Assembly (NCBI RefSeq): GCF_013372225.1
Contig: NZ_CP053832.1
Location: 372,001-436,000, forward strand
Origin: Campylobacter ureolyticus
Lineage (GTDB): Bacteria; Campylobacterota; Campylobacteria; Campylobacterales; Campylobacteraceae
Direction: 5' to 3'
Length of the DNA stretch: 64,000 nt
The notes beneath the pieces were generated by a model. The model saw only the letters and a list, made by a program, of their open reading frames with translations. It searched no databases and had not been told where the DNA came from. Of the stretch, positions 37,695 through 45,779 are shown one piece after another (within the stretch, counting starts at the first letter, position 1; the number at the start of each line of letters is the position of its first letter). The position numbers and the translations under genes are program-made.

Positions 37695-37817
37695 TTGGAA
37701 GCACTATTTGTTTTGGTAGTTGCAATTTTAGCAGGATTTTTTTTATATAAAAATTTTAAAAAAACAGGTGGATGTGGATGTGGCAAAAAAGATTGTCCAA
37801 GTAAAAAACACAACTAA
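37695..37817 (+). CDS. FeoB-associated Cys-rich membrane protein
   Basis: 40-residue protein: one membrane helix (ALFVLVVAILAGFFLY) then a basic tail with GGCGCGKKDC. This matches the small FeoB-associated cysteine-rich proteins found next to feoB in many anaerobes, which probably take the place of FeoC. The start is TTG at 37695, 5 bp after AAAGGAGA. A longer in-frame reading from 37614 would run through the G8 tract and inside the DUF4198 gene and is unlikely. Its stop is 7 bp before a large inverted repeat. Confidence 0.75.
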   Translation: MEALFVLVVAILAGFFLYKNFKKTGGCGCGKKDCPSKKHN

Positions 37818-37824
37818 AAAACCG

Positions 37825-37867
37825 TATAAACTATAAATAAAACAAGATAATTTATTTATAGTTTATA
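37825..37867. promoter_or_regulatory. 17-bp perfect inverted repeat before the Fur-family gene
   Basis: Arms TATAAACTATAAATAAA (37825-37841) and TTTATTTATAGTTTATA (37851-37867) around a 9-nt spacer. The whole element fills the 71-bp gap between the Cys-rich gene and the Fur-family gene. There is no G/C-rich stem and no T tract, so an operator (for example autoregulation by the Fur-like protein) fits better than a terminator. Confidence 0.6.
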
Positions 37868-37888
37868 TGTGTTTAAATAAGGTAAAAT

Positions 37889-38317
37889 ATGGTTAATGAT
37901 AGAGTTTTTACTAAATTTTTAAATATGATTTTTCCTGATAGCAAAGATTTTCCTACGCGATCTGCAATTATAAAAATTCTTTTTTACAACAAGCATTTAA
38001 GCACAAAAATGATAAAAGAAATTTATGAAAAACAAGAAAAAAATAGTGTTAATATAAGCACCATTTATCAAACAATAAATTTACTTGAAGAAAAAAATCT
38101 AATAAAATCTATAAATTTAAAAAATGTTATTTATTATGAACTTGAAAATGGTTTAAGACATGATCATTTAGTTTGCATAAAGTGTGGAAAAATAGTTGAA
38201 TTTATCGATAATAGTTTTTCGAGCTTAGAGCAAAATTTAGGTAAAATATATGAGTTTAATATAGAGGGTAGGATATTAATTTTACAAGGAGTTTGCAAAA
38301 AATGTCAATTGTCATAA
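37889..38317 (+). CDS. Fur-family transcriptional regulator
   Basis: 142 residues: a winged helix (about 20-85, with recognition-helix region NISTIYQTINLLEEKNLI) and a dimerisation/metal domain with RHDHLVCIKCGKIVEF and a second Cys pair CKKC at the end, the structural Zn(Cys4) site. It may be Fur, PerR or Zur; the sequence alone does not decide. The gene overlaps the next ATPase by 16 bp and is preceded by a large inverted repeat, so it likely controls this island and itself. Confidence 0.85.
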   Translation: MVNDRVFTKFLNMIFPDSKDFPTRSAIIKILFYNKHLSTKMIKEIYEKQEKNSVNISTIYQTINLLEEKNLIKSINLKNVIYYELENGLRHDHLVCIKCGKIVEFIDNSFSSLEQNLGKIYEFNIEGRILILQGVCKKCQLS

Positions 38318-40428
38318 AATCAAATTTAAAAGATAGAGTTAGGCTTAAATCAGATCTTTTTACAAAGAAAAATGAGGACTTTATAAATCAAATTTTAGAA
38401 GATAAAGTTATAGATTTAAGATTTAATTTAGCTTGCAATTCGCTTATAATAAAATTTAATTCCTTGGAAATTTCTTTAAATGATATACTTGATTTACTCT
38501 ATGAATATTTTAAAATTTCTTCAAATTTACCAAAAGAAAAAGTTGAAAATTCACTCAAAACTTGCAATGATTGTTTGGTTTGTAAAAAAACTCACTCTAA
38601 AAAAACTTGGAGAAGAAAAGTTTATGAAATAGTTGGTTTAAGTGTGGTTGCGGTAGTTGTTTTTGTAAAAGAGCATATTTTAGCAACCCCTTTTTCAGCC
38701 ATTTCAAATATTGCACTTGGAAGTCTTAGTGTAATTGCAGCACTACCACTTTTAAATGAAGCTAAAAATGACATTTTAAATAAAAAATTTAGTCTTGAAA
38801 CTTTCATGGCATTTTCTTTACTTTTAGCTATTTTTGGCGGTGAGATAGCAGCTGCTTTTGAAGTTATTTATATATTAAGGGCTTCTAGATTATTTGAAGA
38901 ATATACCGCGCAAAAATCTCGCATTGCAATTAAAAATTTGATAGAAATGGATGTTAAACAAGTATACGTTTTAAATGGCGATATTGAAATACAAACAAAT
39001 TTAGAAGATGTTAAAAAAGGCGATATCGTAGTTTGTGTAAATGGAGAAAAAATTTGTGTTGATGGTGAAGTTGTATATGGTGAGGGATATGTTGATGAAA
39101 GCATTATAAATGGCCATAGTCAAGCTATTTATAAAAAAATTGGAAGCAAGGTTTTTGCAAATACAACTTTAAATGAGGGAAAAATTCACATAAAAGTAAG
39201 TGCTGTTGGAAATGAAACTTATATTTCGCGTGTAATTAATGATGTTGAGAAGCATTTAAGCCTAAAATCTACAAGCGAGATTGAGGCTGATAGGCTTGCT
39301 AAAAAAGTTTTAAAACTTGGCTCATTTATGACGATTGCGACACTATTTTTAACAGGTTCTTTTACTAATGCTTTTAGTGTGATGATTATTATGAGTTGTC
39401 CATGTGCTACTATTTTAGCGGCAAGTTCAGCAGTTAGTTCGGCTATTGCAAGTGCAGCAAAGAATGGAATTTTGATTAAAGGTGGTGAGCATTTAGAAAA
39501 AATGAGCAAAGCAGATATAGTTTGTTTTGATAAAACAGGCACATTAACCACAAATACTCCGATTGTATCAAGTTATGAAACAAAACTTGATGAAAATGAG
39601 TTTTTTCAAGTTTTATCAAATTTAGAACACAAAAACACCCATCCTATCGCAAAAGCAGTGAGTAAATACTGCCAAAATTTAGGCTTTAAGCCAATTTCAA
39701 GCTCAAATAGTTGCAGTATCGTTGGACTTGGTGTAAAAGGCAAATTCAATAAAGATAAATACCTTCTTGGAAATAAAAAATTTATGGTTGATAACGGCGT
39801 TAGACTCCCATATAATAGCAACTTTTTAAAAGATAACGAACACGCAACGATTATATTTTTAGCTAAAAACTATAAATTTGTTGGATGCTTGTCTATATCG
39901 CACGAGATAAGAGATGGAAGTAAGGAAACTATATTGGAGCTTAAAAAAAGAGGTGTTAAAAAAATAGTCTTATTAACCGGAGATGATGAACTTGTGGCAA
40001 ATGAATTTGCAAAAGAGTTTGAATTTAATGCTGTTTATCCAAATTTAATGCCTGATGAAAAAGCCAAGATAGTAAATTCTTTTTCAAAAAAAGGCATTAC
40101 TCTTATGATAGGAGATGGCGTAAATGACACTTTAGCTATGAGTAGGGCAGACATTAGTGTTTCTTTTGCAAGTGGTGGAAGCGAGGCTGCTATAGAAGTA
40201 TCAAATATCGCTATAACAAATTCCGATCCAAAAGATATAATAAAACTTTTTGATTTAAGCAATTTGGCTTTAAAAAAAGCAAATCAAAACTATAAAATAG
40301 GCACTTCAACAAATATATTAGGCTCTATTTTGGCAATGTTTGGCACTATTACACCAGCAGCTGCAGGACTTATACACTTAGCTCATACTGGGGCTATTTT
40401 ATACAATTCAAGCAAGGTTAAAATTTGA
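38302..40428 (+). CDS. P1B-type heavy-metal ATPase with CPC motif and R-x-R N-terminal domain
   Basis: 708-residue metal-pumping ATPase. The N-terminus (1-80) looks like a degenerate HMA domain without GMxCxxC; it begins with KDRVRLKSD, followed by a CNDCLVCKK Cys cluster near 92-100. Then come membrane segments, the actuator domain, SCPCAT with the CPC ion site at Cys366-Cys368, the phosphorylated Asp410 in DKTGT, the HP motif (THPIAKAV) and GDGVNDTLAMS. CPC is typical of Cu+ or Zn2+/Cd2+ pumps, so the cargo is unsettled. I chose the ATG at 38302; an in-frame TTG at 38293 sits 1 bp from the AAGGAG site. It overlaps the Fur-family gene. Confidence 0.85.
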   Translation: MSIVIKSNLKDRVRLKSDLFTKKNEDFINQILEDKVIDLRFNLACNSLIIKFNSLEISLNDILDLLYEYFKISSNLPKEKVENSLKTCNDCLVCKKTHSKKTWRRKVYEIVGLSVVAVVVFVKEHILATPFSAISNIALGSLSVIAALPLLNEAKNDILNKKFSLETFMAFSLLLAIFGGEIAAAFEVIYILRASRLFEEYTAQKSRIAIKNLIEMDVKQVYVLNGDIEIQTNLEDVKKGDIVVCVNGEKICVDGEVVYGEGYVDESIINGHSQAIYKKIGSKVFANTTLNEGKIHIKVSAVGNETYISRVINDVEKHLSLKSTSEIEADRLAKKVLKLGSFMTIATLFLTGSFTNAFSVMIIMSCPCATILAASSAVSSAIASAAKNGILIKGGEHLEKMSKADIVCFDKTGTLTTNTPIVSSYETKLDENEFFQVLSNLEHKNTHPIAKAVSKYCQNLGFKPISSSNSCSIVGLGVKGKFNKDKYLLGNKKFMVDNGVRLPYNSNFLKDNEHATIIFLAKNYKFVGCLSISHEIRDGSKETILELKKRGVKKIVLLTGDDELVANEFAKEFEFNAVYPNLMPDEKAKIVNSFSKKGITLMIGDGVNDTLAMSRADISVSFASGGSEAAIEVSNIAITNSDPKDIIKLFDLSNLALKKANQNYKIGTSTNILGSILAMFGTITPAAAGLIHLAHTGAILYNSSKVKI

Positions 40429-40490
40429 TAATGATTTTTAAATGATTTTAAGTTTAGTTTAAAATAAAAAATATGATAATGCATTAAAAT
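40427..40490 (+). promoter_or_regulatory. Promoter region of the fez-like operon with Fur-box-like sites
   Basis: GATAATGAT (40427-40435) overlaps the ATPase stop. TGATAATGCATTA (40474-40486) overlaps the likely -10 (TATGAT or GATAAT, 40472-40480). Both resemble halves of GATAATGATAATCATTATC, placing possible Fur operators across the promoter of the small-protein operon that starts at 40507. Confidence 0.4.
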
Positions 40491-40506: not shown

Positions 40507-40845
40507 TTGAAAATAACATCTGAAATGATACTTAAAATTATGTCATACTGCTCTTTAATCCACCATATAAATGGCAGGTTAAGAGTTAGAATAAATCCTT
40601 CCATTAAGAAGGAGTTGGAAAATTTTAGTAAAGATGAGATTGCAAATTTTAGCGAAAGCTTTAAATCAAGTATTGAAAATTTTGCAGGCATTAAAAATAT
40701 AAAACTAAATAAAACAGTTGCATCTTTAACAATAGAATATGATAAAGATATCATTCCAAAAAGTTTTTGGGATAATGTTCTAAATGGGAAAGATTTAGAT
40801 ATCGCAGCTAATAAATTTAATCAATTATTAAAGGATGCAGCGTGA
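40507..40845 (+). CDS. HMA-like small protein with GRLRVR motif (FezC-like candidate)
   Basis: 112 residues, no signal peptide. The region HHINGRLRVRINPSIKKEL (about 19-37) has the Arg-rich R-x-R motif of the HMA_2 type of metal-associated domain, which lacks the usual Cys pair. A beta-alpha-beta HMA-like remainder (GIKNIKLNKTVASLTIEYD) follows. Domains with this R motif occur in FezC and at the N-terminus of FezB in ferrosome operons. The start is TTG at 40507 with AAAGGAGA upstream. First gene of a tight operon; it overlaps the next gene by 4 bp. Confidence 0.7.
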   Translation: MKITSEMILKIMSYCSLIHHINGRLRVRINPSIKKELENFSKDEIANFSESFKSSIENFAGIKNIKLNKTVASLTIEYDKDIIPKSFWDNVLNGKDLDIAANKFNQLLKDAA

Positions 40846-41480
40846 AAAAAGAGTTATATGATGCCATAATTCATGAAGAACAGGGCATAAAAATGTATGA
40901 GGAATTTGCTTTAAAATTTAACGAACCTGTTTTTACTGAAATTTTAAATGTTAAAAAAACAGGAAGTGAGTTTTTAAAATCTGCAAATTTGCAAAATGGT
41001 AAAAATAATGATTTTTTAAAAGAGGTAAATTTTAAAAATTTTAGTAATATAAATGATAAAAATGATGCTGTTTTCAAAGCATTATCTTATGAGATTGAAA
41101 GTGAAAATTTATATAGTGAGCTTGCATCAAATGAAAATAATGAAGCTTTAAAAGATCTTTATTTTAGAATCTGGGCAACCTCTACAAACGAGTATAAAAA
41201 AGCTTTGCAAAATTTGTTAAATTTAGAAACTTTTAAAGATGGTGAACAAAATTTTAAAGAAGATAAGCATATAAATAAAGACACAAATGCCTTTAATTAT
41301 GCAAGGGAATTTAGCGAGGCATTAGAAAAACTAAAAAATGGTAAAATGACTGCAAATGAAGCTTTAAATTTACTCCAAAATCCAAATATATCATTTATTG
41401 GAGGAGCGTTAATAGGAGCTTTGGGCGGTGTTTTGCTAAATCAACTTTTAGATAAAAACAACAATAGTCATGAAGAATAA
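40842..41480 (+). CDS. Ferritin-like protein with a C-terminal membrane helix
   Basis: 212 residues. Residues 1-130 look like a four-helix ferritin/rubrerythrin-type fold: IIHEEQGIKMYEEFA (10-23), LSYEIESENLYSELA (81-95) and YFRIWATSTNEYKKAL (107-122), with candidate iron ligands Glu13, Glu20, Glu84, Glu87 and Glu117. The usual His of the last helix is replaced (NEY), so a full di-iron site is uncertain. A linker follows, then a glycine-zipper helix FIGGALIGALGGVLLNQLL (185-203). A ferritin-like domain tied to a membrane inside a metal-ATPase operon suggests iron handling at a membrane. GTG start overlapping the upstream gene. Confidence 0.65.
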   Translation: MKKELYDAIIHEEQGIKMYEEFALKFNEPVFTEILNVKKTGSEFLKSANLQNGKNNDFLKEVNFKNFSNINDKNDAVFKALSYEIESENLYSELASNENNEALKDLYFRIWATSTNEYKKALQNLLNLETFKDGEQNFKEDKHINKDTNAFNYAREFSEALEKLKNGKMTANEALNLLQNPNISFIGGALIGALGGVLLNQLLDKNNNSHEE

Positions 41481-41499
41481 CTTTTTAAAGGAGAGAAAA

Positions 41500-41841
41500 A
41501 TGGCACTTCCATTTATAGCAGGTATTGCAGTAGGAGCAGGATTAATAGTTGCTTATAATAATAAAAGCAAGATAAAAAATACTATCTTAGAAAAGGCTCA
41601 AAAAACAAAAGAGTTTGCAAGTGATTTAAAAGATAAAGTTTGTGATAGTAAATGTGATTGCGAGGAAGTAAAAGATAGCGTTATCAAAGATTGCGAGAAA
41701 GCAAAAGATGATGTTATAAAAGATGGTGAAAAAGTAAAAGAAAGCGTTAAAAAAGCTGTAAATAAAACAAAAGATACTATCTCAAAAGAAGTAGATAATT
41801 TAAAAGAAAAAGTTCAAAACACTAAGACTTCAAATAAGTAA
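41500..41841 (+). CDS. YtxH-like membrane protein with Cys cluster
   Basis: 113 residues. An N-terminal glycine-rich helix (ALPFIAGIAVGAGLIVAY) is followed by a long charged amphipathic helix of KD/KE repeats, as in YtxH-type proteins. A cluster CDSKCDCEE at about 49-57, plus a fourth Cys about 15 residues later, could bind metal. I prefer the ATG at 41500, directly behind AAAGGAGAGAAAA; an upstream in-frame ATG at 41470 overlaps the ferritin-like gene. No enzyme domain is visible. Confidence 0.65.
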   Translation: MALPFIAGIAVGAGLIVAYNNKSKIKNTILEKAQKTKEFASDLKDKVCDSKCDCEEVKDSVIKDCEKAKDDVIKDGEKVKESVKKAVNKTKDTISKEVDNLKEKVQNTKTSNK

Positions 41842-41858: not shown

Positions 41859-42149
41859 ATGTTTAAAACATCAACTAGCAGGCTTCCAGCTGATCATTTT
41901 ATAAGTGGGGCACTTTTTGGCGGTATGACTGCAACTGCACTAGAGTTTTATGGCAATAAGCAGTCAAGTTCAAAAGATAAAGTTAAAAATATAAGTAAAT
42001 TTGCTATTGAAGGTGGTATCGCTACATCATTATCAATAAGCGCATCAAATAAGATTGTTCAAAAACAGTATTTAAATGCTGCTTTTGATATGGCGTTAGG
42101 AATTGGACTTATTTTGGCGATTGAAAATATATTAAAAATAGGAGAATGA
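41859..42149 (+). CDS. Small glycine-zipper membrane protein
   Basis: 96 residues with two or three hydrophobic stretches: HFISGALFGGMTATALEFYG (13-32), IEGGIATSLSISASN and AFDMALGIGLILAIENIL. Glycine and alanine spacing (GxxxG-like) suggests tight helix packing. Function unknown. It sits in the middle of the fez-like operon, 17 bp after the Cys-cluster protein and 3 bp before the next gene, with AAAGGAAGATAA before the ATG. Confidence 0.6.
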   Translation: MFKTSTSRLPADHFISGALFGGMTATALEFYGNKQSSSKDKVKNISKFAIEGGIATSLSISASNKIVQKQYLNAAFDMALGIGLILAIENILKIGE

Positions 42150-42152
42150 GAA

Positions 42153-42485
42153 ATGACAAATCCATATATAAAAGAAGCAAAAGTTGAAGTAAGAAATGAG
42201 TTTACAGATGCTACTATAAACTCAGGTGAAAAACTAGGCTTAAACGCAACTTCAAATCAATCAAATTCAGGAATTTTAGGAAATTTACTTCCAAATTTTA
42301 GTTCTGCAAATTTTTTGCAAGGTGCAATAGTTGGAGCAATAGCTGCTTATGTTTTAACTAATGAAAATGCACAACAGACAATTTTTAAATCAATTGTAAG
42401 AATGGGCAAACTTTTTGAAGCAGGAAAAGAAGAGCTTAAAGAGAGATTTGAAGATGCAAAAGCAGAAATTGAAGCAGGACAATAA
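42153..42485 (+). CDS. Single-helix YtxH-like membrane protein
   Basis: 110 residues. A polar N-terminus, one glycine/alanine helix (FLQGAIVGAIAAYVLTNEN, about 51-69) and a charged amphipathic helix (LFEAGKEELKERFEDAKAEI). The layout resembles the 41500 protein and other YtxH-like proteins, so these may be scaffold or membrane-shaping components. The end overlaps the start of the P1B ATPase by about 32 bp. Confidence 0.6.
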   Translation: MTNPYIKEAKVEVRNEFTDATINSGEKLGLNATSNQSNSGILGNLLPNFSSANFLQGAIVGAIAAYVLTNENAQQTIFKSIVRMGKLFEAGKEELKERFEDAKAEIEAGQ

Positions 42486-44547
42486 TATAGAGTTTGAAAT
42501 TTTTCATAAAAGTAAAAACCGAGTTAGGTTTTTACAGCCTGAGCTAAGTTTAAATTCTGATATCAAAGCTTATAAAGATGCCATATTAAAACTTGATAAT
42601 GTTACAAATGCAAGAGTTAATAAAACTATAAAAAGTGTAACTGTAAATTTTGAGAATGTAGACTTAGATAAATTACTAGGTGAAATTTCAAAACTTGAAA
42701 TTCCAGTTTTAGAAAATGAAAGTGATGATATAAGTAAAGCTGAGATTATAAAATCTTTAATTTCACTTGGGCTTACGCCTATTGTTAAAAACAAAGATAT
42801 AAACACCTTAATAAGCTTGTTTGCCTCATATCCACTTTTAAAAGATGGATTAAGTGAGCTTTTAAAAAGCGGTCTTACTTCAAAAGTTTTAGAGGCAATG
42901 GCAGTTGGAATTTCACTTTCAAGAAAAGATTTATTAGCTGCAAATAGTACAAATTTGATGTTAAATATTGGCGAGTATATTGAAGAAAGCACAACTCATA
43001 AAAGCGATGATTTAATTAAGGCGTTGGCAAAACCAGCTATCAAAGAAGCTTGGGTTGAGGTTAATAAAAATGGTAAAAAAACTCTTGTTAAGACAAAAAC
43101 AGAAGATATTAAAGTTGGAGATATTGTAGTAGTTGGAAGTGGCGAGAGTATTGCAATAGATGGGTATGTATTGGAAGGAAATGCAAGTGTAAATGAAGCC
43201 TCTATGACAGGCGAAGCAGAAGCTATTGCTAAAAAACATGGTGATAGAGTTATGAGTGGAACTGTTGTTGAAGATGGTAAAATTAAAATTTGGACTGAGC
43301 TTGCTGGAAAAGATACAAGTACTGAAAGAATTCGCCATTACATACAAAATTCACTCAATGAAAAATCTAATGTAGCTCAAAAAGCCACAAAACTAGCCGA
43401 TAAGTTAGTGCCTATAACTTTAAGTTTGGCTGGATTATCATACTTTATAAATAGAAATATGACAAGTGTAGCTTCGGTTTTACAAGCTGATTATTCGTGT
43501 GCTTTAAAGCTTGCTACTCCAGTAGCTTTTAAATCAAGCATAAGTAAAGCTGGAAATAACGGTATGCTTATAAAAGGTGCTAAATCATTAGAAGAGCTAG
43601 CTAGTGCAGATACTTTTGTTTTTGACAAAACAGGAACCATTACAAGAGGAATTTTAGAAGTTATTGACATTATAAGCTTTGATAAAGACTGGAAAAAAGA
43701 TGATATTTTAAATCTTGCAGCAAGTGCTGAAGAGCACTATTTTCATCCAATTGCAGAAGCTGTTGTAAGTGCGGCAGAGAAAAAAGGATTTAAGCATATG
43801 CATCATGGAGAAGTTGAGTTTATTGTAGCACATGGACTTAAAACACATTTTCATGGCAAAGAAGTAGTTATCGGAAATAGACATTTTTTAGAAGATGATG
43901 AAAATATTTCATTTAAAGCTCACGATACAAAGATAAGAAATGAACTAAAAGATGGAAATACACTTTTATATATTGGCTATGATAAAAAGCTTCTAGGAAT
44001 TATTGTTATGAAAGATGAAATTCGCTCAAACGCTAAAAAAACTATTAAAAAGTTAAAAGAACTTGGCGTTAAAGAAGTGATTATGCTAACAGGAGATATT
44101 GAAACAAAAGCAAAAGAAGTTGCAGATTTATTGGGTATTGATAAAGTATATGCAAATATGCTTCCAACTTCAAAAGCAGAAGTTATAGATACTCTTGTAA
44201 AAGAAGGTAAAAAAGTTGTATTTTGTGGTGATGGGATAAACGATGCACCATCTTTAACAAAAGCAAATGTTGGAATAAGCATGAAAAGAGGTGCTGATAT
44301 AGCAAGGGCAGTTGCTGATATTAGTCTTTTAAAAGATGATATTTATGCAGTTGCTCGACTAAAAGAGTTAGCAAATGAAACTTTAAAACTAGTTGATAAA
44401 AATTTTAATGCCACAGTTTTAATAAACTCAGCGATACTTTTAGGTGCAACTTTAGGAAAATTAAGTCCTATTTCAACAGCGGTTTTACATAATGGAACAA
44501 CGATAGGACTTCTTTTAAATTCAATGAAGGGTGTGAAAATTCAGTAA
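42454..44547 (+). CDS. P1B-type ATPase with SCA motif (FezB-like, P1B-6 candidate)
   Basis: About 697-residue P-type ATPase. The N-terminus has an HMA-like domain with the R-x-R motif (HKSKNRVRF). A weakly hydrophobic pre-actuator region follows (EAMAVGISLSRKDLLAANS...LNIGEYIEEST), then the actuator (ASMTGEAEA). The ion-site helix reads DYSCALKLATP with Ser348-Cys349-Ala350 in place of CPC. Asp391 in DKTGT, HPIAEAV and GDGINDAPS complete the family motifs. Replacement of CPC by SCA and the R motif are, as I recall, features of P1B-6 ATPases, whose characterised member FezB builds ferrosomes. The start is uncertain (42415, 42454 or TTG 42469); all overlap the upstream gene. Confidence 0.8.
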   Translation: MQKQKLKQDNNIEFEIFHKSKNRVRFLQPELSLNSDIKAYKDAILKLDNVTNARVNKTIKSVTVNFENVDLDKLLGEISKLEIPVLENESDDISKAEIIKSLISLGLTPIVKNKDINTLISLFASYPLLKDGLSELLKSGLTSKVLEAMAVGISLSRKDLLAANSTNLMLNIGEYIEESTTHKSDDLIKALAKPAIKEAWVEVNKNGKKTLVKTKTEDIKVGDIVVVGSGESIAIDGYVLEGNASVNEASMTGEAEAIAKKHGDRVMSGTVVEDGKIKIWTELAGKDTSTERIRHYIQNSLNEKSNVAQKATKLADKLVPITLSLAGLSYFINRNMTSVASVLQADYSCALKLATPVAFKSSISKAGNNGMLIKGAKSLEELASADTFVFDKTGTITRGILEVIDIISFDKDWKKDDILNLAASAEEHYFHPIAEAVVSAAEKKGFKHMHHGEVEFIVAHGLKTHFHGKEVVIGNRHFLEDDENISFKAHDTKIRNELKDGNTLLYIGYDKKLLGIIVMKDEIRSNAKKTIKKLKELGVKEVIMLTGDIETKAKEVADLLGIDKVYANMLPTSKAEVIDTLVKEGKKVVFCGDGINDAPSLTKANVGISMKRGADIARAVADISLLKDDIYAVARLKELANETLKLVDKNFNATVLINSAILLGATLGKLSPISTAVLHNGTTIGLLLNSMKGVKIQ

Positions 44548-44566: not shown

Positions 44567-44585
44567 TATAATGACATTTATTATC
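44567..44585. promoter_or_regulatory. Fur-box-like site
   Basis: TATAATGACATTTATTATC matches 15 of 19 positions of GATAATGATAATCATTATC, with an inverted TAATGA/TCATTA repeat extending just past it. It includes a TATAAT that could serve as the -10 for the small gene at 44602. Confidence 0.5.
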
Positions 44586-44601
44586 ATTACAAGGAAATTA
44601 A

Positions 44602-44736
44602 ATGCCATTTTTTATACTAAATGCAGTTTTATTTACTGCGACAACGGTGATGACTTATGATACAATCTCAAAAGCAAAAACAAAATTTGATAGAAAAAGA
44701 AGACGAAAGCTTGAAAAAAGCAAAAACAGAGATTAA
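44602..44736 (+). CDS. Possible 44-residue membrane peptide
   Basis: Short reading frame behind a good AAGGAAATTAA ribosome site. It has one hydrophobic helix (FFILNAVLFTATTVM) and a very basic tail (KFDRKRRRKLEKSKNRD). It overlaps the following gene by 80 bp in another frame. No homologue is recognised. The ribosome site and helix-plus-basic-tail layout argue that it is real, possibly for translational coupling. Confidence 0.4.
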   Translation: MPFFILNAVLFTATTVMTYDTISKAKTKFDRKRRRKLEKSKNRD

Positions 44737-44941
44737 AAAACCTTTTTTAGATGATATGAGCAAGAAAGAGCTTGCTAAAATTGGTCTTAGTGTCTCAATG
44801 GGACTTACTGTGTTAAGTGCATTTTCATTAAGAAGTAGATTTTCTAAAAATTTACATGTTATTTCTGGAGCTTTAATGGTTGGGTTTGCATTTTATCACA
44901 ATTCACTCTATGATAATAAAACTCCTGCAAAAAAAGATTAA
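44657..44941 (+). CDS. Small membrane protein at the end of the fez-like operon
   Basis: 94 residues: a charged N-terminal helix (about 1-38) and two hydrophobic segments (LAKIGLSVSMGLTVLSAF and HVISGALMVGFAFYH). Unknown family. The ribosome site is weak (GGTGATG), which together with the overlapping 44602 frame suggests coupled translation. It follows the P1B ATPase by 109 bp that contain a Fur-box-like site, so it may also be transcribed on its own. Confidence 0.6.
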   Translation: MIQSQKQKQNLIEKEDESLKKAKTEIKKPFLDDMSKKELAKIGLSVSMGLTVLSAFSLRSRFSKNLHVISGALMVGFAFYHNSLYDNKTPAKKD

Positions 44942-45508: not shown

Positions 45509-45537
45509 TTGCAAAATTAATGTTTTTTTGATATAGT
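45509..45537 (+). promoter_or_regulatory. Promoter of the 45567 gene
   Basis: TTGCAA (45509-45514) and TATAGT (45532-45537) with a 17-bp spacer, about 30 bp before the ATG. Confidence 0.5.
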
Positions 45538-45566
45538 TGCGAAATTTTATTTTTAGGAGAATGTTT

Positions 45567-45779
45567 ATGACTTATGATGAGTTAGAGCTTGAAGCTTATC
45601 TTTTAGAGATTTTAGAAGAATATAAGAACTTTGATAATATGGACGATGAGGAACTATACGAACTTATGAGCAATGTTGCAAGCTATATGGATGATGATTA
45701 TGAAGAAGCTTATGAGTATGTAACGCAGTTTGGACCAATTGACAAAAAAAGAATTTTAGCTCTTGATTTACCAAGATAA
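45567..45779 (+). CDS. Small acidic protein of unknown function
   Basis: 70 residues, strongly acidic and tyrosine-rich (TYDELELEAYLLEILEEY, then MDDEELYELM and MDDDYEEAYEYV), probably all helical and cytosolic. The ATG at 45567 has TAGGAGA at good spacing; the in-frame ATG two codons earlier touches that site. It has its own promoter. No family recognised. Convergent with acpS, whose stop lies 9 bp away. Confidence 0.6.
   Translation: MTYDELELEAYLLEILEEYKNFDNMDDEELYELMSNVASYMDDDYEEAYEYVTQFGPIDKKRILALDLPR

Follow-up and report, generated by a model that had tools for sequence, protein, structure and literature searches.

The genes between 37889 and 44941 of the window (the whole stretch of 64,000 nucleotides that was analysed) all point in the same direction, and most of them overlap or are tightly spaced. 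Gaps of 78 and 109 bases follow the gene of a P1B ATPase, here called the partner, and separate fezB from fezC, respectively. The features of this putative operon are as follows.

37889..38317, + strand: Fur-family regulator (Pfam PF01475, 69.6 bits)
38302..40428, + strand: partner P1B ATPase; N-terminus resembling HMA_2, MSCPCAT lacking the subsequent Pro, NGHS where TGES is expected
40426..40440, + strand: Fur-box-like site in the gap after the partner pump; weak match, 12/14 positions
40507..40845, + strand: small HMA_2-like protein; no CxxC, H..GR.R.R motif conserved
40842..41480, + strand: ferritin-like/rubrerythrin-like domain; glycine-rich membrane helix at the C-terminus
41470..41841, + strand: small protein; a single membrane helix at the N-terminus plus a charged helix resembling YtxH/apolipoprotein
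41859..42149, + strand: small membrane protein; weak likeness to the magnetosome protein MamC (17.3 bits, cut-off 100)
42153..42485, + strand: small, putatively FezA-like protein directly upstream of fezB and overlapping it
42454..44547, + strand: FezB-like P1B ATPase; DYSCALKLATP in M4, DKTGT, TGEA; HMA_2-like N-terminal domain, N658 in M5, H679 in M6
44572..44586, + strand: Fur-box-like site in the fezB-fezC gap; weak match, 12/14 positions
44657..44941, + strand: FezC/DUF4405-like membrane protein; weak Pfam match (17.8 bits, below the gathering score)

The ferrosome-type gene neighbourhood

Ferrosomes are iron-storing compartments that have only recently been described in bacteria. FezB and FezC are ferrosome proteins, the former a putative ferrous-iron transporter and the latter a DUF4405-like cytochrome (PMC10979944). 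In the FezC-like protein of the window, His67 and His81 are invariant (34/34), as are G23, R24 and R26 of the 40507..40845 protein (40/40). The product of 42153..42485 combines a glycine-rich membrane helix with a conserved EE.KERFEDAKAE helix, and its position next to fezB suggests that it is FezA-like. HMA_2-like domains occur three times in the operon (38302-38550, 40507-40845 and 42454-42760), in each case with an R.R motif and no CxxC.

The ferritin-like protein retains E12, E84 and N116, while the helix-B E..H and helix-D His of its relatives are missing. As some diiron ligands are thus lost, it is probably not an active ferroxidase. The ligands look intact in some relatives, e.g. at the gammaproteobacterial locus L056, and degraded in this genus. 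Its structural model is of low confidence (pLDDT 62.8), and the best fold match, to ferritin-like proteins (E 2.9e-3), is suggestive only.

The order HMA_2, ferritin-like, YtxH-like, MamC-like, FezA-like, FezB, FezC is shared by most of the roughly 30 neighbourhoods inspected, one of which is an Arcobacter plasmid; a related six-gene cluster lies on an Azospirillum plasmid. Across the order, fezB (E <= 1e-120) was detected in 53 of the 249 Campylobacterales genomes sampled, and it was absent from all sampled members of one whole genus of the family. This conservation bears on an alternative in which the FezB-like pump would be a cytoplasmic-membrane efflux pump with a PfeT/FrvA-like role, exporting excess Fe2+ with no organelle involved. 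Bacterial P1B-4 pumps do export Fe2+ (PMC10654040), a Fur-family gene (one of four in the genome, overlapping the partner gene) stands at the operon head, and feoB is nearby. Still, the pump is consistently linked to FezC-like, FezA-like and further small membrane proteins, which fits an organelle cluster better than a lone efflux pump, and simple efflux is considered improbable.

Ferrosomes of C. difficile require FezA and FezB, and both are repressed by Fur (PMC12574912). In the window, eight Fur-box-like sites with at most two mismatches were observed against 1.5 expected (maximum of 5 in 100 shuffles), and two of the eight sit at the gaps of the fez-type operon. The sites may be taken as a weak sign of Fur regulation of the operon; at the operon start, the window shows no convincing canonical Fur box, and such a box is present in just a few of the relatives.

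Three further elements flank the operon. The spacer that separates the feoB region from the fur-like gene holds a 24 bp inverted repeat (37818-37874; 88% complementary, 9-base loop), for which no conservation was seen in relatives. A short Cys-rich membrane peptide (37699-37816, ...KTGGCGCGKKDCPSKKHN) is encoded downstream of feoB and is present in relatives too. A homologue of the small acidic protein at 45537-45779 adjoins the fez operon on the opposite strand in several relatives (L030-L033).

Metal site and phylogeny of the FezB-like ATPase

The reading frame runs from ATG 42454 to the stop at 44547 and encodes 697 amino acids, with Ser348-Cys349-Ala350 in place and DKTGT at 391-395, in agreement with the preliminary description. 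CPC is kept in the two other P1B pumps of the window (38293/38302 and 48709), likewise as described. The proposal that the ion site reads SCA instead of CPC holds as regards the loss of CPC, but the register was one residue off: the ungapped alignment of DYSCALKLATP with ACPCALGLATP places CPC opposite Tyr347-Ser348-Cys349, so that the second Cys is retained as Cys349 while the first Cys and the Pro are substituted. A polar stretch in the first membrane part, ISLSRKDLLAANS, had also been remarked upon as unusual. The stretch is real; in the AlphaFold model it forms a predicted turn joining membrane helices 143-156 and 160-192, and it is a family-wide feature (Asn164 in 66/73 and Thr166 in 65/73 relatives).

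When relatives were ranked by BLAST score, D[YF]SCA was found in all but one of the best ~40. The lone exception, from Rhodobacter capsulatus (L059:9929-12073), has YACP for YSCA and falls inside the FezB clade. As the motif is common to nearly all of these relatives and dN/dS of fezB against its nearest relative is about 0.19, an origin of SCA by chance or frameshift was ruled out. Asp346 (73/73) and Lys352 (69/73) are further family-specific changes; the 73-row census was selected by D[YF]SCA, which makes its counts for positions 346 and 348-350 circular, and the BLAST-ranked relatives agree with it on the motif.

The core P1B motifs (TGE, DKTGT, HP, TGD and GDGxND) are all present. Asn658 in M5 aligns with the column holding Asn in CopA and Lys in ZntA, and His679 in M6 with that holding Met in CopA and Asp in ZntA. 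The AlphaFold model is that of a P1B ATPase, of moderate quality (pLDDT 84.7, pTM 0.70), with a predicted ferredoxin-like (HMA-like) N-terminal domain; its top Foldseek matches include a copper pump (4bbj) and a zinc pump (4umw).

In a 68-row tree with E. coli CopA (P1B-1), E. coli ZntA (P1B-2) and S. meliloti Nia (P1B-5) as references, the SCA sequences form one clade (SH-aLRT 99-100) apart from all three, which excludes membership of the FezB-like pump in P1B-1, P1B-2 or P1B-5. The clade spans Campylobacterota, Pseudomonadota, Desulfovibrionaceae, Clostridia, Spirochaetota and others, and Rhodomicrobium is also represented in it. The third pump of the window (48709) clusters with ZntA (support 97). 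The assignment of the 42454-44547 protein as FezB-like rests on clade and neighbourhood.

An assignment to P1B-6, with iron as cargo, had been put forward from the altered triplet. Context and phylogeny support both subgroup and iron; the changed triplet alone is no proof of cargo, and metal specificity has no certain reading from sequence. P1B pumps are often promiscuous, and His in the M6 site also occurs in 17 of 80 non-FezB P1B pumps, so the pump might instead carry another divalent metal (Mn, Co, Ni or Zn) within a general metal-handling operon. The ferrosome-type neighbours, the ferritin-like protein within the operon and the assignment of P1B-6 to iron in the literature all speak against this, and we regard it as very improbable. 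P1B-6 is listed as an Fe(II) subgroup in a published table (PMC7558416); no statement that SCA is the P1B-6 motif was found in the literature searched. Taken together, the 42454-44547 protein is very likely a P1B-6 ATPase of FezB type, encoded in a ferrosome gene cluster. Its bacterial host is placed in Campylobacterales by kinship with Sulfurospirillum and Arcobacter sequences.

The partner ATPase

The partner pump (38302-40428, with an alternative TTG start at 38293 also open) belongs to a separate, long-branched clade (support 100). DKTGT and GDGVND are intact, and partner copies retain the phosphorylation Asp, TGD/SGD, GDGxND, the M5 Asn and the M6 His. In every copy the Pro after CPC is replaced by Ser, and TGE by NG[R/H/Y]: mostly R, with H in the window and one relative and Y in one. 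The partner class was found in 21 genomes over all searches, and in all 21 NG[R/H/Y]S stands for TGE, with loss of the dephosphorylation Glu. Counted by reading frame, this position holds R, H or Y in 23/23 partner ORFs (including duplicate or partial copies from the same genomes) as against Glu in 73/73 FezB sequences; 79 of the 80 other ORFs also have Glu, and the one that does not, L106, gave no BLAST match to FezB. A review describes the phosphatase-motif Glu as present in all pumps (PMC10654040).

The occurrence of the partner is tied to that of fezB. All eight partner-bearing genomes among the 249 of the order are found within the 53 fezB carriers (hypergeometric p 2.7e-6), and all 18 partner-bearing genomes among 397 of the phylum have fezB. 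Wherever both genes could be seen, at 20/20 loci, the partner gene precedes fezB by 1.9-2.5 kb in the same orientation. The draft genome G030 is the one exception to the co-occurrence: its partner gene lies on a 3-kb contig, and the search for fezB there gave no match. No close relative of the partner was found on plasmids among the best matches (identity at most ~32%). Outside Campylobacterota, it was detected in 0/349 genomes sampled from the phylum to which the gammaproteobacterial contig L056 belongs, a set without a positive control. Contig C61 of the metagenome-assembled genome to which L056 belongs (G272) carries seven P1B ATPase matches.

With dN/dS near 0.17, the partner is under purifying selection and its function appears to be maintained. 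It could in principle be an ordinary cycling P1B pump in which Arg or His takes the place of the TGE Glu without functional loss; purifying selection and the retention of every other catalytic motif together with the M5/M6 site residues are compatible with this. The near-universal Glu in FezB and the other ORFs, and its description as a residue of all pumps, weigh against it, and we hold ordinary cycling to be unlikely. Since the phosphorylation Asp is kept while the phosphate-removing Glu is lost, the partner most likely cycles slowly or not at all and serves as a regulatory or scaffold protein, a phosphorylation-locked state being our leading guess. It is tentatively proposed, at somewhat less than even odds, as a new class of P-type ATPase in Campylobacterota, in which fixed replacement of the phosphatase Glu by Arg, His or Tyr yields a phosphorylation-locked sensor or scaffold controlling FezB or ferrosome formation.

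Proposed function and comparison with known systems

In the scheme we infer for cargo, organelle and division of labour, the FezB-like pump would reside in the membrane of the ferrosome vesicle and drive Fe2+ from the cytoplasm into the lumen at the expense of ATP. In place of the thiol-rich CPC site it would offer one Cys (Cys349) and harder ligands, for which Asp346, Ser348, Asn658 and His679 are candidates; a combination of one thiol with O/N ligands would be appropriate for Fe2+. The redox state of the iron would be set by the FezC-like protein, and building or lining the vesicle may fall to the ferritin-like protein together with the small glycine-helix proteins.

So far, only a handful of bacteria have been shown to make ferrosomes; which further pathogens or commensals possess them is a question raised in a 2025 review (PMC12574912). 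The frequency of fezB reported above makes the ferrosome-type cluster widespread in Campylobacterales. The fez-linked partner departs from what has been stated as a rule for every P-type pump. It could therefore serve to test directly what the TGE Glu is required for, and whether there are P-type ATPases that regulate instead of transporting.

Among other P1B pumps, E. coli CopA and ZntA have fold and catalytic motifs in common with the FezB-like pump, which differs from them by YSC for CPC, Asp346 and Lys352 in M4, the M6 His and its separate clade. Four actinobacterial pumps (L062, L064, L068 and L070), which we take to be CtpC-like, are among the next best matches by score and share the P1B architecture, but they retain CPC and form a separate clade. 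S. meliloti Nia, for which Ni2+/Fe2+ are reported substrates (PMC4932525), is likewise of P1B architecture; it belongs to another clade, has another M4 triplet (TPC), and its reading frame as read runs beyond the ATPase core, which that of FezB does not.

The closest parallel is provided by the ferrosome fez operons of D. magneticus, R. palustris, S. putrefaciens and C. difficile, in which a P1B ATPase is likewise encoded together with small membrane proteins and a DUF4405 protein of the FezC type. The operon of R. palustris comprises six genes (PMC12016538), and the six-gene cluster of the Azospirillum plasmid is similar in make-up to fez operons. Beyond the content of these operons, the cluster of the window has a Fur-family gene, the P1B ATPase devoid of TGE, and genes for a MamC-like protein and a ferritin-like membrane protein.
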